Shown: in pieces, positions 15,751 to 40,757 of the stretch
Layout: every line of letters starts with the position of its first letter
Numbering within the stretch: position 1 is the first letter of the stretch
From: Oidiodendron maius Zn
Taxonomy: Eukaryota > Ascomycota > Leotiomycetes > Myxotrichaceae
Reading direction: 5' to 3'
Length of the DNA: 64,000 bases
NCBI GenBank assembly: GCA_000827325.1
Contig: KN832880.1
Location: 290,803 to 354,802, forward strand
Made by a program: the position numbers and the translations under genes
Notes under the pieces: generated by a model
The model's database searches: none
Seen by the model: only the letters and a program-made list of their open reading frames with translations
Told to the model about the DNA's origin: nothing

Positions 15751-16010
15751 TGTCTCGGCTACGTATTCTGCACGAATCAAAGGCGGAGCGGCGCTATGTC
15801 TGCTACCAAAAAGGACTAGTCTTTCAGATATACAGGTTCATCTCGCCCTCGTTACTGTCCATGCACTGTCTCGGCTACGTATTCTGCACGAATCAAAGGC
15901 GGAGTGCGCTATGTCTGCTACCAGCTAGGACCAGTCTTTCAGACATACAGATTCATCTCGCCCTCGTTACCGTCCATGCATTGTCTTGGCTACGTATTTA
16001 GCGCGAATCA
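15751..16010 (+). repeat. About 116-bp direct tandem repeat upstream of the microexon gene
   Basis: A unit beginning TGTCTCGGCTACGTATT starts at 15751 and again at 15867; a third, truncated copy begins at 15982. The first two copies differ by few changes and a small indel. The block ends about 150 bp before the ATG of the microexon gene, so it may lie in its promoter, but no function is shown. Confidence 0.8.
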
Positions 16011-16158: not shown

Positions 16159-19100
16159 ATGAATCCCAGGCTTCTCTTAGCAGGCTTGTTCGCTGCCTTA
16201 GCAGCTGCTCAGGTATTTATTCCATAAAAGGAGCCAGTTGTAGTGAACCCCATTGAAGTTTGAGTATTGCTGTATATTACAAGAGCTGAGATATTGCGCC
16301 TGATGCTTTAGGATGTAAGTGACTCCGCTTGGATTTTGGGACGGCTTCTTGGTATAGTTACTGATATGTTGGGTCTGGTGCTCTAGTGTGTAAGTGGTTC
16401 CTGTGAAACTCTGAGATGACTTCTTGGTATAGGTGCTAATATGTTGGGTCTGGCGATTTAGCGAGTAAGTGACTCCCTTGGACTTTGTGGCGACTTTTTG
16501 TGCTGATATGTTGGGTCTGGTGTTTTAGGGAGTAAGTGATTTCCTGAGATCTTGGAATAGCTGTTTGGAATTGGTGCTGATATATTGGGTCTGGTGCTTT
16601 AGTTTGTAAGTGGCTCTGCTAGGATTTTGGGACAGCTGTTTAGGATAGGTGTTAATATATTGAGCCTTGATGCTTTAGTGTGTAAGCGACTCTGCTTGGA
16701 TTTTGGAACGGCTGTTAGTATAGGTACTGATATGTTGGGTCTGGTGCTTTAGAATGTAAGTGACTCCCTTTAGATTCCTGGACAGCTATTTAGAATAGAT
16801 ACTGATATATTGGGTCTGGTGCATTAGTCTGTAAGTGACTCCTTGGACTTTGGGACGGCTTTTTAGTATAGGTGTTAATATGTTGGGTCTGGCGCCTTAG
16901 GTTGTAAGTGACTCCCCTTGGACTTTAAGATAGCTGCTTTATTTAGGTACTAATATGCTGGGTCTGGTGCTTTAGGCTGTAAGTAATTCCACTTAGACTT
17001 TGGGATGCTTCTTAGTATAGGTACTGATATATTGGACCTGGTGCATTAGGCTGTAAGTGGTTCTACTTGAGCTCTGGAGTGGCTTCTTGGTATAGGTACT
17101 GATATGCTTGGTCTGGTGCAATAGTTTGTAGGTGACCCCCTTGGATTTTGGGACAGCTTCTTGGTATAGGTACTGATATATTGGGTCTGGTACTTTAGCA
17201 AGTAAGTGGTTCTTGTGAAACTCTGGGATGACTTCTTGGTATAGGGTGCTAATATGCTGGGTCTGGTGGTTTAGCAAGTAAGTGACTCCCCTTGGACTTT
17301 GCGACAGCTTCTTGGTATATACGCTAATATGTTGGGTCTTGTGCTTTAGTACGTAAGTGATTCCTCTTGGATGACTGTTAGTATAAGTGTTGATACGTTC
17401 GGTCTGGTGCTTTAGTATGTAAGTAACTCCCTTTAGGATTTGGGAAAGCTGTTTAGTATAGGTGCTAATACGATAGGTCTGCTGCTTTAGCCAGTAAGTA
17501 ATTCCTCTTGGACTTTCAGACGGCTTCTTGGTATAAGTGGCTGATATATTGGGTCTGGTGCTTTAGTGCGTAAGTGGTCCCTTTAGTCTTTTGGAGGGCT
17601 TTTAGTATAGGTGCTAATACGTTAGGTCTGGTACCTTAGGCTGTAAGTGACTCCCCTTGGACTTTGAGATGGCTGCTTTGTTTAGGTAGTAATATATTGG
17701 GTCTGGTGCTTTAGGCTGTAAGTAATTCCCCTTAGACTTTAGAATAACTTCTTGGTATAGGCGCTAATGCATTAGGTCTGGTGGTTTAGCAAGTAAGTGA
17801 CTCCCTTGGATTTTAAGACAACTTTTTAGTATAGGGGCTGATATGTTGGGTCTGGTGTTTTAGGGAGTAAGTTGGTCCCGTTAGATTCTAGCAGGCTGCT
17901 TGATATAGTTGCTTATGTACTGGGTCTGGTGCTTTAGTGTGTAAGTGAGTTCTTTGGGTTTTGAGACCGCCATTAGCATAGGTGCTGATATATTGGGTCT
18001 GATATCTTAGACTGTAAGTGTCTCCCTTATATTTTGGGACGGGTGTTTGTATAGGTACTAATCTTTTGGGCCTGGTATTTAGACTGTAAGTAATACCCCT
18101 TAGACTTTAAGATAGCTGCTTTATTAGGTACTGATATATTGGGTCTGGTGCTTTAGGCTGTAAGTAATACCCCTTAGACTTAAGATAGCTGCTTTATTTA
18201 GGTATTAATATTTTGGGCCTGGTGCTTTAGGCTGTAAGTGGTTACACTCTATAGTTTAAGTATTACTATATATTAGAGGTACTAATATATTGGGTTGGAT
18301 ACTTTAGGTTGTAAGTGGCTCTGCTTAGACTATAGGAAATCTGTTTAGGAAAGGTACTAATATATTTGGTCTATTACTTTAGGATGTAAGTAGTTCCTCC
18401 AAGATTCTGGGTTAGCTGTTTAAGATAGCTGCTAATATATTGGGTCTAATGCTTTAGTGTGTAAGTAATTCCTGCCCTTAGAATTTGGGACGGCTGTTTG
18501 GAATAGCTGCTGATATATTAGGTCTGGTTCTTTAGTGTGTAAGTGATTCCCCTTAGAATTTAGGATGGCTGTTTAGGATAGGTGCTAATATACTTGATCT
18601 GGTGCTTTAGCTTGTTAGTAACTCCCCTTAGACTTTAAGATAGCTGCTTTGTTTAGGTACTAATATACTAACTCTGGTGCTTTAGGCTGTAAGTAATTCC
18701 CCCTAGACTTTAGGACAGCTTCTTAGTATAGGTGTTGATATATTGGATCTGGCACTTTAGCTTGTAAGTAACTCCCTTTAGACTTGGGACGTGTGTTACT
18801 ATAGGTACTGATATATTGGGTCTATTAATTAGCAAGTAAGCAATTCCTATTTGGCTTTAGGACGGCTTTTTAGTGTAGGTGCTAATATATTGGATCTGGT
18901 GCTTTAGAATGCAAGTGACTCCCCTAAGATTCCTAGATAACTGTTTGGAATAGGTGCTGATATGTTAGGTCTGCTGTTTTAGTGTGTAAGTGACTCCCCT
19001 TGTATTTTGGGGAAGCTGTTTAGTATAGGTGCTAATATAACGGTCTGCTGCTTTAGCCAGTAAGTGATTCCTCTTGGATTCTGTAATGTCATTTTGGTAT

Positions 19101-20641
19101 ATATACTGATATATTGGGTCTGGTGCTTTAGAATGTAAATGACTCCACTTTAATTCCTAAATAGTTGTTTATAATTAGTGCTAATTGTTGGATCTGGTGC
19201 TTTAGTGTGTAAGTGATTCCCCCTGGATTCTAGGGCAGCTTTTTGGTGTAGGTATTGACATATTGGGCCTGGTGCTTTAGTCTGTAAGTGATCCCCCTTA
19301 GATTCTAGGACAGCTTCTTGGTATAGGTATTGATATATTGGGCCTGGTGTTTTAGGGAGTAAGTGATTCCCTTCAGATTTTGGGATGGCTACTTGATATA
19401 GGTGCTGATATGTTGGGTCTGGTGCTTTAGTGTGTAAGTGGTTCCCCTGATATTCTGGGAAAGTTGTTTAGGATAACTGCTGATATATTGGGTCTGGTAT
19501 TTTAGGGAGTAAGTGATTCCCCTTAGACTTTAGAACAGTTTATTTTGTATAGGTACTGATATATCGGAATCCGTCCGGTACTTTAGACTGTAAGTGATTC
19601 CACTTGCTGTTTGAGCTAAGCATTGCTGCTTGGTATAGGCGCTGATATGTTGGGTCTGGTACTTTAGACAGTAAGTGATTCCCCTTGGACTTTAGATAGC
19701 GGTTTAGTATATACGCTAATATGTTGAGTCCTGGTGCTTCAGTGTGTAAGTAATTCCCTTAGGCTTTGCGATGGTTGTTTAGTATATATTCTAATTTAAT
19801 ATACCTAATGCCTTAGGCTGTAAGTGACTCCCTTTAGACTTTAAGGTGGCTGCTTGTTTAGGTGCTGATATTTTGGGTCTGGTGCTTTAGTCTGTAAGTG
19901 ATTCTACTTTATAGTTTAGGTATTGCTATATATTATAGGTACTAATATATTGGGTTGTATACTTTAGGTTGTAAGTGGTGCAGCTTAGACCTTAGGAAAG
20001 CTGTTTAGTATAAGTACTAATAAGTTTGATCTGGTGTTTTAGTGTGTAAGTGATTCTACTTAGAGTTTAAGTGTTGCTGCTTGGTATAAGTGCTGATATG
20101 TAGCGTCTGTTACTTTAGCTTGTAAGCAACTCCTCTAGGACTTTAGCATACTTGCTTTATTTAAGTACTAATGTTTTTGGATATGGTGCTCTAGGAAGTA
20201 AGTGATTCCCTTTAGACTTTGGAACAGCTATTCTGTATAAGTGCTGATATATCGGATCTGGTACTTTAGAATGTAAGTGATTCCACTTGCAGTTTGAGCT
20301 GAACATTGCTGCTTGATATAGGTACTGATATGTCGGGTCTGGTACTTTAGCTTGTAAGTGATTCATTTTGGACTTTAGACGGCTTCTTGGTATAGGTGCT
20401 AATACGGTGGGTCTGCTGCTTTAGCCAGTAAGTATTACCTCTTGGACTTTTTAATGTCTTTTTGGTATATGTGCTAATATGTTGGGTCTGGTGCTTTAGT
20501 GTGTAAGTGACTCCTTTTAGGTTTTGGGAAGGCTGTTTAGTATAGGCACTGATATGTTGAGTCGGAAACCTTAGGCTGTGAGTGACTTCTCTTGGATATT
20601 GGGACGGCTGTTTGGTATGGTGCTAACATGTCGTATAGTAG
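16159..20641 (+). CDS. Codon-per-exon gene: secreted Cys-rich peptide from 58 three-nucleotide exons
   Basis: Exon 1 (16159-16212) encodes MNPRLLLAGLFAALAAAQ, a typical signal peptide. Intron 1 is 16213-16311 (GTATTT...CTTTAG). Then come 58 exons of exactly 3 nt, from GAT 16312-16314 to GCT 20575-20577, each bounded by AG on the left and GTAAGT (50 of 58) or a close variant on the right. The last acceptor (20637-20638) is followed at once by TAG 20639-20641. All introns are phase 0, so each microexon is one codon, and none is a stop. The 76-residue product has 12 Cys in the 58-residue mature part, spaced C-x3-C-x11-C-x4-C-x6-CC-x5-C-x2-C-x2-C-x3-C-x3-C-x5-C; it ends SGCGTTCASVCLENLPCA. Coding sequence is 231 of 4,483 bp. 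I do not recognise the peptide family; a small disulfide-rich extracellular protein is likely. The alternative, a non-coding minisatellite, does not explain the signal peptide, invariant 3-nt spacing, terminal stop or Cys content. Splicing is not proven. Confidence 0.75.
16213..20638 (+). repeat. Array of 59 homologous introns separated by codon-sized exons
   Basis: Microexon starts: 16312, 16387, 16462, 16529, 16603, 16679, 16753, 16828, 16901, 16976, 17050, 17125, 17199, 17275, 17350, 17416, 17491, 17567, 17640, 17715, 17790, 17864, 17938, 18011, 18083, 18157, 18231, 18308, 18383, 18458, 18536, 18611, 18686, 18761, 18833, 18908, 18983, 19057, 19132, 19206, 19281, 19356, 19431, 19506, 19587, 19668, 19743, 19817, 19891, 19968, 20043, 20119, 20195, 20270, 20351, 20425, 20500, 20575. 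The introns between and after the microexons are 61-78 nt and share a consensus: GTAAGTGAYTCC, a middle GGCTKYTTGGTATAGG, a branch-like GCTGATATGTTGG or GCTAATAT, then CTGGTGCTTTAG. Non-GTAAGT donors: GTAAGC after exons 6, 35 and 52, GTAGGT after 12, GTTAGT after 32, GCAAGT after 36, GTAAAT after 39 and GTGAGT after 58. All acceptors are TAG except CAG before exon 47. Confidence 0.9.
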
Positions 20642-20774: not shown

Positions 20775-21165
20775 TTGATCAGATCTTCAAATAGGGCTAT
20801 TTGTGATTTAATAGAAAGCTTTCAGCAAGCGTACTATGACATTTCCCAACAGCTTGGGATACATGGATGGGAGGAGAGCAAATTGGACATCAAGAAACTT
20901 GTGAAAGACTACCTAAGCAAAGAAAGCAAAGAAAGTGCTGGCCAGTGGGTCCTAGTGTTCGACAATGCCGACAATATTGACATGTGGATGCAGAGTCATA
21001 AGAATGGTCATCCTCCTCTAATCGAGTGCCTTCCAAGGTGTACAGTAATCGAGGTGTATTATCTTTACAACTCGCGTCAGGAAGACGGCAAGCTAGCTTG
21101 CTCATAAAAATACAGTAGAAGTTCAAGCTTTGAGTGAAGAGACTGGCACACACCTACTGTAATAA
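20775..21165 (+). pseudogene. NB-ARC fragment of an NLR-type protein
   Basis: The open part (SFQQAYYDISQQLGIHGWEE, VKDYLSKESKESAGQWVLVFDNADNIDMWM, PPLIECLPR) matches the Walker B region of fungal NB-ARC proteins of the Pfs/NB-ARC/TPR type. After a break the frame continues weakly with LAHKNTVEVQALSEETGTHLL, also a recognisable NB-ARC piece. No P-loop, N-terminal domain or repeats are present, so this is a gene fragment. It starts about 130 bp after the stop of the microexon gene. Confidence 0.7.
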
Positions 21166-40039: not shown

Positions 40040-40753
40040 TATTATTATTATTATTATTATCCTCCGCAATGGCTAAGCCGCGGTACTTCTACACAATAAT
40101 ATCCTATATACAAAGGCTAACGCAACCTCTCGGAAGAATCCTCACTGATATGCATACCCCCTTGTAATACAGGCAAATAATCGGGAGGCCTAGGTAAACT
40201 CGTCCAGTGGCAACTCTGAACCAAACTTCCTCCTTCTCCCTGGGATCAGACCACTGTCCCTGCCTCTGGTGTCCAGCCCTGTCTCTCACTCAGTTCTGTT
40301 CCTAGACGGCCTCTGGGGGCTGGTCGCTTCGCTACTTGATTGGTCGCGGTTGTAGGGCCCTATCACCCTAGTCTCAAGCTCTTTGGTCGTGTATCAATGA
40401 TTTGGTCTTCGTCGTTTCTAGAGGCTCACCCCTCTAGAAAGGTAGGGTTTTGCCCAGGTTCTCGGTTAGGCGACCGCTGCTGTGGTATCCGGGAGCAGAA
40501 GCCGGGGCCAAGGTTCTCGGTTAGGCAAAAACCGCTGCTGTGATAACCGGGAGCAGAATCCGGGTTCAAGCTAGGCCTAGGGGGAGCAGTCCTAGGTGAA
40601 CCAGCTAGTCATCTTCTGGGAGGCAACAGAAGAGGTGCCTAGAGCTGGATTCGAACCAACATCCCTCACATCACAGGTTTAAATAGGGTGGGCGAGACCT
40701 ATTAGGTTCGATGATGACTTTTGGGACCCAGGCGCACGACCACTGCGCCATCC
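40040..40753 (-). mobile_element. tRNA-derived SINE with 16-bp target duplication
   Basis: Read on the minus strand, the element starts with a tRNA-like head, continues through a body with an internal 54-bp repeat (40458 and 40512), and ends in an AAT-repeat tail (40040-40060). It is flanked by identical 16-bp direct repeats GGGCTTCGTTAAGCAT at 40024-40039 and 40754-40769. Short target duplications plus a simple A/T-rich tail are the marks of LINE-mediated retroposition. No coding capacity is seen, as expected. Confidence 0.8.
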
Positions 40754-40757
40754 GGGC
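40637..40757 (-). ncRNA. tRNA-like promoter head of the SINE
   Basis: The minus strand reads an acceptor-like GCCCGGA, an A box TGGCGCAGTGG with a GCGC/GCGC D-stem, a B box GGTTCGAATCC in a T-arm with GTTGG/CCAGC stem, and a 3' acceptor strand TCTAGGC that pairs with GCCCGGA except at one position. The distance is about 121 nt, too long for a plain tRNA, and no convincing anticodon arm is found, so it is a SINE head rather than a working tRNA gene. Confidence 0.65.

Follow-up and report, generated by a model that had tools for sequence, protein, structure and literature searches.

Genes built from very small exons have been described in several organisms, and they form the background to the locus considered here. 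The micro-exon genes (MEGs) of schistosomes encode small products with the signal peptide mostly in the 5′ exon, and their microexons, defined as shorter than 36 bp and lying between two long flanking exons, are mostly a multiple of three in length (26 of 33 in MEGs 26-32; PMC4671649). The bicycle and megacycle genes of aphids are putative effectors that evolve fast and have numerous small exons sharing one phase; bicycle genes have phase 2 exons, about 17 exons on average, and one gene carries more than 100 microexons (PMC9168663). Introners and introner-like elements of fungi provide many similar copies of an intron, with ascomycete families lacking target-site duplications and terminal inverted repeats (PMC9860276), and exons of extreme brevity include a single one of 3 nucleotides (nt) in Drosophila homothorax (PMC7392893), two of 3 nt in the lipS genes of the fungus Dactylellina haptotyla (PMC5639578) and exons of 1 nt in plants (PMC8831610). 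A gene with one codon per exon was found nowhere among the matches listed from the open PMC literature, outside which subscription journals mostly lie. Here, we describe such an array in a 64,000-nt stretch of Oidiodendron maius Zn DNA (contig KN832880.1, positions 290,803 to 354,802; hereafter the window), and we consider it very probable that this array is a real gene for a secreted peptide precursor, made of an 18-residue signal and a 58-residue mature part with 12 Cys in which every mature codon forms its own exon, and that it belongs to a genome set following the same rule.

The host is a leotiomycete and root symbiont; as an ericoid mycorrhizal fungus, it has 445 annotated small secreted proteins, of which 90 are induced in symbiosis (PMC5938622). 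From the sequence, we infer transcription, splicing and secretion of the predicted products, which would act in symbiosis or competition as variable secreted peptides.

Anatomy and splice signals of the window array

The gene model is read on the plus strand and is made up of the following parts.

16159..16212, plus strand: exon 1, ATG to CAG, 54 nt, start codon and 18-residue hydrophobic leader MNPRLLLAGLFAALAAAQ, ending in phase 0 (taken from the sequence)
16213..16311, plus strand: intron 1, 99 nt, donor GTATTT, between the leader and the mature region (placed by hand)
16312..20577, plus strand: 58 exons of 3 nt, every one in phase 0 and separated by introns 2-58; they encode the 58-residue mature peptide, which has 12 Cys
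20578..20638, plus strand: intron 59, the last, 61 nt, ending right before the stop codon
20639..20641, plus strand: stop codon TAG, the first triplet of the final exon

The first of the 58 triplets is GAT (16312-16314) and the last is GCT (20575-20577), with an AG preceding and a donor following each, and the joined frame, a predicted spliced coding sequence of 231 nt, yields a 76-residue precursor, MNPRLLLAGLFAALAAAQ followed by DCRGFCNSVAAFQQYYPCAAQGCTTAAVDCCLALQNCPNCSGCGTTCASVCLENLPCA, so that in this gene, the largest of the set, 59 introns accompany a mature peptide of 58 residues. The final exon adds no coding part because it begins with the stop codon, which comes directly after the last acceptor ends at 20638. 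The leader was called a signal peptide by eye from its hydrophobic core, as were the leaders at the other loci discussed below. The first-pass annotation of this DNA had read a leader exon, 58 exons of 3 nt in one frame and a terminal stop, each unit consisting of an AG acceptor, 3 nt and a GTAAGT-like donor, and each of these features was borne out in the sequence; its count of 12 Cys codons is also correct (TGT 11, TGC 1).

The introns range from 61 to 99 nt with a mean of 72 (n=59). Their donors are GTAAGT in 50 cases, GTAAGC in three and single variants in six, the donor of the first intron being weak, and their acceptors are TAG in 58 and CAG in one. A branch-like CTRAT had been placed about 20-25 nt before every acceptor; in 49 of the 59 introns we found a CTRAY motif, 16-31 nt upstream of where the intron ends (median 26), so the claim holds for the majority, while the other ten carry variants or none. 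Consensus-like splice sites at every junction, combined with a frame open from start to stop, are what we found on testing for membership among protein-coding genes. Under a loose pattern, 58 of 68 donor-like sites in the window have an AG exactly 3 nt upstream; this pattern also matched one spurious overlap, a TAA at 17868 lying 4 nt past a GGA exon and outside the chain.

A splice-chain search was also run, in which donor, branch site and acceptor contribute to the score, every exon length from 1 to 60 nt costs the same and coding potential plays no part. Blind to exon length in this way, the search returned 58 introns in the window, intron 1 not being taken and having been added by hand, and all 57 of the 57 internal exons measured 3 nt. 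The chain scored 215.5, a value to be set beside first-order Markov resampling of the same stretch, which in 100 rounds never exceeded 28.2, and the best chains elsewhere in the window (exons of at most 12 nt, six best per strand) comprised one or two introns with scores of at most 9.7.

Seen purely as DNA, the array is a tandem repeat of about 75 nt in 58 copies, which is what would be expected of a non-coding satellite whose unit happens to be intron-like and whose triplet is a free variable spot. In the column profile, the splice sites hardly vary, the middles of the introns have an identity of 0.65, and the first two exon positions are random (pairwise identity 0.26 and 0.25). Triplets left free beside nearly invariant splice sites and containing no stops, a leader exon in the correct phase, a stop just past the last acceptor and the same design at loci with different introns all argue against such a repeat; a satellite without coding role was rejected on the exon-length-blind chain, the column profile and the gene models, and we regard it as highly improbable. 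A real splice-site array could also serve regulation or represent a decayed gene, transcribed and inefficiently spliced, with its peptide product not needed. Decayed copies do exist in the genome (L042, L045 and L046 below), but all 58 window units retain the acceptor AG, the donor and a triplet that is not a stop, and we hold this explanation to be unlikely.

Two features flank the array. A 115-nt tandem repeat in 2.2 copies lies directly upstream of the leader exon (15751-16010), and a segment just downstream (20830-21060) looks, by eye, like a fragment of a nucleotide-binding (NLR-type) protein.

Codon-exon loci across the genome

A genome-wide comparison was made with the two-unit pattern AG-NNN-GTAAGT-gap-AG-NNN-GTAAGT, which has 80 matches in the 45.9-Mb genome and three in the reversed control. 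With 4-nt exons in the pattern, three matches were obtained (control 1), and with 6-nt exons one (control 2); the 3-nt exon size is thus specific. By locus, the matches fall in the window (43) and on contigs C18 (12), C16 (8), C17 (7), C1 (3), C10 (2), C14 (1) and C9 (1), which places 77 of the 80 in eight loci with three elsewhere, and a second pattern gave one further locus on C14 (L046). Multiplication by genome-wide introners, which the first-pass annotation had brought up, is not supported, the units being confined to a few loci. Scattered single-unit matches numbered 13, equal to the reversed control, and the two of these that were fetched (L047 and L048) contained no array; the donor variant GTGAGT had three matches genome-wide, one of them in the known L046 array, with four in the reversed control. 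Genome searches with array DNA or protein returned only the query loci, so the other loci are known from patterns alone and more may exist. Two repetitive stretches (G000 C4:29001-29110 and C21:602105-602223) also matched two-unit patterns, seemingly because their repeat unit happens to fit.

As read from sequence, the set contains at least six loci that look intact and three that are decayed or partial, with one common design: a conventional opening portion that carries a signal peptide, in many cases with a propeptide ending in R or KR, comes ahead of the variable mature peptide, which is encoded partly or entirely by codon exons. In the window, L039, L040, L041, L043 and L044, the exon upstream of the array stays open in phase 0 up to its donor. 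A stop stands directly after the last acceptor in six of the nine loci, namely the window, L039, L041 and L043 by the chain search and L044 and L045 by hand, and does not in L040, L042 and L046.

The first exon stops at the propeptide end, with the codon array coming next, in L039, L043 and the partly decayed L042. L039 (C18) has a leader, a propeptide ending in LQSLKAR, 30 introns and an Asp/Tyr/Gly-rich mature part with TAA after the last acceptor, and one of its exons is 6 nt. L043 (C10) has a propeptide ending in IESLEDR and nine codon exons, HFCDHPDCS, then TAA; L044 (C1) has a propeptide with SESKR, the residues DSMPQ still within exon 1, four codon exons, ECDC, and TAG. In L040 (C17), a propeptide ending in LDKR is followed by 44 contiguous mature codons, ten codon exons and an ordinary last exon. 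L041 (minus strand, C16:429500-438500) encodes a longer leader-bearing protein with ESAPTQEY-type repeats. Codon exons make up most of its C-terminal tail, nine consecutive Gly included, and TAA follows; one exon is 6 nt, and an extra 9-nt exon (GATCCTCAT) between GTA and AGACTT is possible by eye and was not chosen by the search. At L046, an intact intronless gene (L046:2457-2732, minus strand) encodes a 91-residue precursor with a KR junction and 12 Cys in its mature part, and the decayed array lies about 400 nt downstream of this gene for a similar precursor.

Across six gene models (window, L039, L040, L041, L043 and L044), 125 of 128 internal exons are 3 nt, a count in which window intron 1 and the L044 junctions were placed by hand, a 22-nt exon of L039 was left as 22 although CAC is possible, the L040 search range was trimmed so as to omit a 12-nt exon added by a wider search (125 of 129 with that exon), and L042, L045 and L046 stand outside. 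None of the 125 3-nt exons is a stop (P ~5e-6 at the window intron stop rate, 0.03 under column composition). The first-pass annotation had named related arrays drifting off 3 nt or rich in stop triplets as evidence that would speak against it, and within this genome neither is seen. Because other loci share the design, some of them with introns unlike those of the window, the genome-wide comparison adds support to the codon-exon reading.

The first parts of these genes are similar and their mature parts are not. When leader plus propeptide (prepro) was compared in 28 pairs, the shuffle p was below 0.01 for 14, mainly among L039, L040, L042, L043 and L046, with L039-L044, L040-L041, L041-L044, L041-L046 and window-L040 as further pairs; part of this similarity is expected without homology because shuffling destroys the common build of signal peptides. 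Over the last 14 prepro residues, past most of the hydrophobic core, six pairs were tested, giving p <=0.001 within the trio L039, L042 and L043, 0.02 for both L043-L046 and L039-L046, and 0.05 for L040-L046. Among mature peptides, none of the ten pairs tested fell below p 0.1 (lowest p 0.10). When intron consensus sequences are compared, those of L039, L040, L043 and L046 resemble one another (interior z 3.8 to 8.9), and the window consensus is unlike them (z 0.3 to 2.9), in a comparison that takes in the branch site and therefore adds some similarity everywhere. The L041 consensus reaches z 1.0 to 3.9 against the same four, and its introns are hardly alike among themselves (0.48 vs 0.46 shuffled). 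Since the window introns differ from the mutually similar introns of those four loci, the codon-exon design is present in at least two intron lineages, perhaps more.

Several findings weigh against reading the window array as a gene in such a set. The lack of stops in the window locus alone is weak evidence: P is 0.09 from the exon columns' own composition, of the same order as the chance of about 0.06 that had been stated at the outset and called weak by itself, and 0.003 from the intron-triplet stop rate, so the no-stop test is weak under its most conservative null. The window leader resembles one of seven other leaders at p<0.05 (L040, p 0.006), a value that partly reflects the shared build of signal peptides. 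The spliced window peptide had no protein-database match at E<=1, although O. maius proteins are included there, among them the OPT transporter whose gene adjoins the array (100% identity to the Oidiodendron maius Zn hypothetical protein OIDMADRAFT_43346, with 92% of the query covered). In the protein database, no relative outside this genome was found for either the L046 protein or the window peptide. In L039, the 22-nt exon chosen by the search would break the frame, which the 3-nt CAC keeps; the hand-placed junctions of L044 replace another ending chosen by the chain search; and the L040 array lacks a terminal stop. In L042, the first donor is weak and an acceptor has been lost; L045 consists of two codon exons and TGA with no leader; and the L046 array has five 3-nt exons by search and a sixth, with a broken donor, by eye. 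These three loci, whose readings are partly by eye, look partial or decayed, and decay of arrays thus happens. Given that O. maius proteins are in the database and none matched, the window peptide is apparently not annotated as such, and gene predictors would be expected to miss a codon-exon gene. In Pfam, the window peptide had one match below the cut-off, DUF3443 (E 0.065, 12.6 bits vs 25).

Origin and predicted processing of the arrays

Two accounts of how the arrays arose stand about equal in our judgment. In the first, the gene would once have been compact and ordinary, and one intron would have been copied into the junctions between its codons, through reverse splicing or some other copying within the locus, until all codon boundaries were filled. 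In the second, intron-plus-codon units would have been duplicated by unequal crossing-over or conversion, one residue each time, with the codons then diversifying fast under selection. We see each as a serious possibility somewhat short of an even chance. The window introns are alike (mean identity 0.72 to one another) although codon positions 1 and 2 are random, as copying of an intron would leave them; under duplication, those positions need saturation while intron middles stay 65% identical. An ungapped flank test found codon identity independent of the flanks (p 0.33), which likewise suits copying, and downstream introns carry no link. Duplication gains from several weak signals: intron-pair similarity in the window runs along diagonals (z 3.15), codons agree more often where the two flanking introns are very similar (0.40 of 15 pairs in the 0.85 flank-identity bin vs ~0.07 in the 0.70-0.75 bins), and whole upstream introns are slightly more alike when the codon is the same (reached by 5/500 shuffles). 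Diagonals are nonetheless absent in L039, L040, L041 and L043 (z -0.8 to 0.7), and the most alike intron block has codons differing at 3/3 positions. Adjacent identical codons, which duplication might leave, are not in excess (6 vs 4.4, p 0.28); insertion with a 3-bp target duplication, which would also leave such pairs, is unsupported in the window on the same count. The nine consecutive Gly codons of L041 would fit an insertion of that kind.

Strict 3-nt spacing and phase are accounted for directly by duplication, whereas copying leaves unexplained why insertion occurred solely at codon boundaries, with every boundary of the window mature part occupied and the introns of L041 barely alike. 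Compact and hybrid forms speak for copying: the intronless precursor gene of L046, the 44 contiguous codons beside ten codon exons of L040 and the single 6-nt exons of L039 and L041. Codon usage enters on both sides. The third position of the window triplets is T in 42, A in 14, C in two and G in none, giving almost one codon per amino acid with no G-ending, compared with 26-32% G in four ordinary open reading frames (ORFs) nearby; near one-codon usage agrees with duplication and less well with copying, but the compact parts of L040 (5/44) and L046 (2/60) are also G-poor at the codon end. T-ending triplets make up 10/10 of the L040 array vs 26/44 of its contiguous codons (p 0.02), and 42/58 of the window array vs 33/60 of the L046 contiguous codons (p 0.06, not significant).

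The window introns are short and complete in themselves, as intron definition requires. Each of them, with its own donor, branch site and acceptor, would be recognised in this manner, and exon size would then be immaterial. A 3-nt exon would give the next donor only positions -3 to -1, and both flanking introns would not be engaged together; because neighbouring splice sites 3 nt apart cannot be occupied at once, the introns are probably removed one after another, each removal lengthening the exon. Each of the 59 window introns, if retained, brings in a frameshift or a stop, and loss of any intron-plus-codon unit keeps the frame; in the proposed working, keeping any single intron would accordingly break or stop the frame and skipping any unit would stay within it. 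More tentatively, and with better odds for its being wrong, we propose a codon-cassette system in which each residue is a separate exon with its own intron, so that residues might be added, lost, swapped or skipped without a frame break, by genomic recombination or RNA splicing, and which may have originated or been retained in no fewer than two unrelated intron lineages of the genome, perhaps three or four, as a variable-peptide device.

If spliced as predicted, the array means that the spliceosome can process dozens of consecutive 3-nt exons; intron definition is then put to the test at its lower limit, and the order in which introns are removed becomes measurable. If the reading is true, it also adds a class of secreted-peptide genes in a plant-symbiotic fungus that annotation tends to overlook and offers a direct route to studying how introns come to sit exactly between codons.

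Elsewhere in the window, a 126-nt tandem repeat in 5.7 copies (5506-6225) lies inside a TPR-rich ORF (4571-6478), and a marginal tRNA match was obtained on the minus strand (40636-40757; 30.7 bits vs cut-off 29), which ARAGORN did not report.

Comparison with known systems

The codon-exon genes are compared with schistosome MEGs by architecture, the organisms being unrelated. As in MEGs, the leader, a signal peptide by eye, lies in the 5′ exon, and the central coding part of the window gene consists wholly of exons shorter than 36 bp and divisible by three (58/58; 125/128 of 3 nt over six models). Unlike MEGs, the window gene has 3 nt in all 58 of its exons and a last exon that opens with the stop, so there is no long coding exon on both sides. 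The bicycle genes differ in phase, the codon-exon loci being phase 0 (window, L039, L040, L041, L043 and L044) and all 3 nt in the window, and the accessible part of the bicycle-gene paper presents no codon-sized series. With introners, the window array shares many similar copies of one intron, but introners insert into many genes, whereas the codon-exon units found occur at only about nine loci, with a single codon between neighbours. Isolated very small exons occur one or two per gene, in contrast to a gene that splits its whole mature peptide.

Secreted peptide precursors with a conserved prepro and a hypervariable mature part form a general class, which the codon-exon genes resemble in having similar prepro regions ending in R or KR before dissimilar mature parts and from which they differ in that the variable part is divided codon by codon. 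One codon per exon would be a new gene architecture, working like that of a microexon gene but falling outside the MEGs, bicycle genes and introner-like elements.

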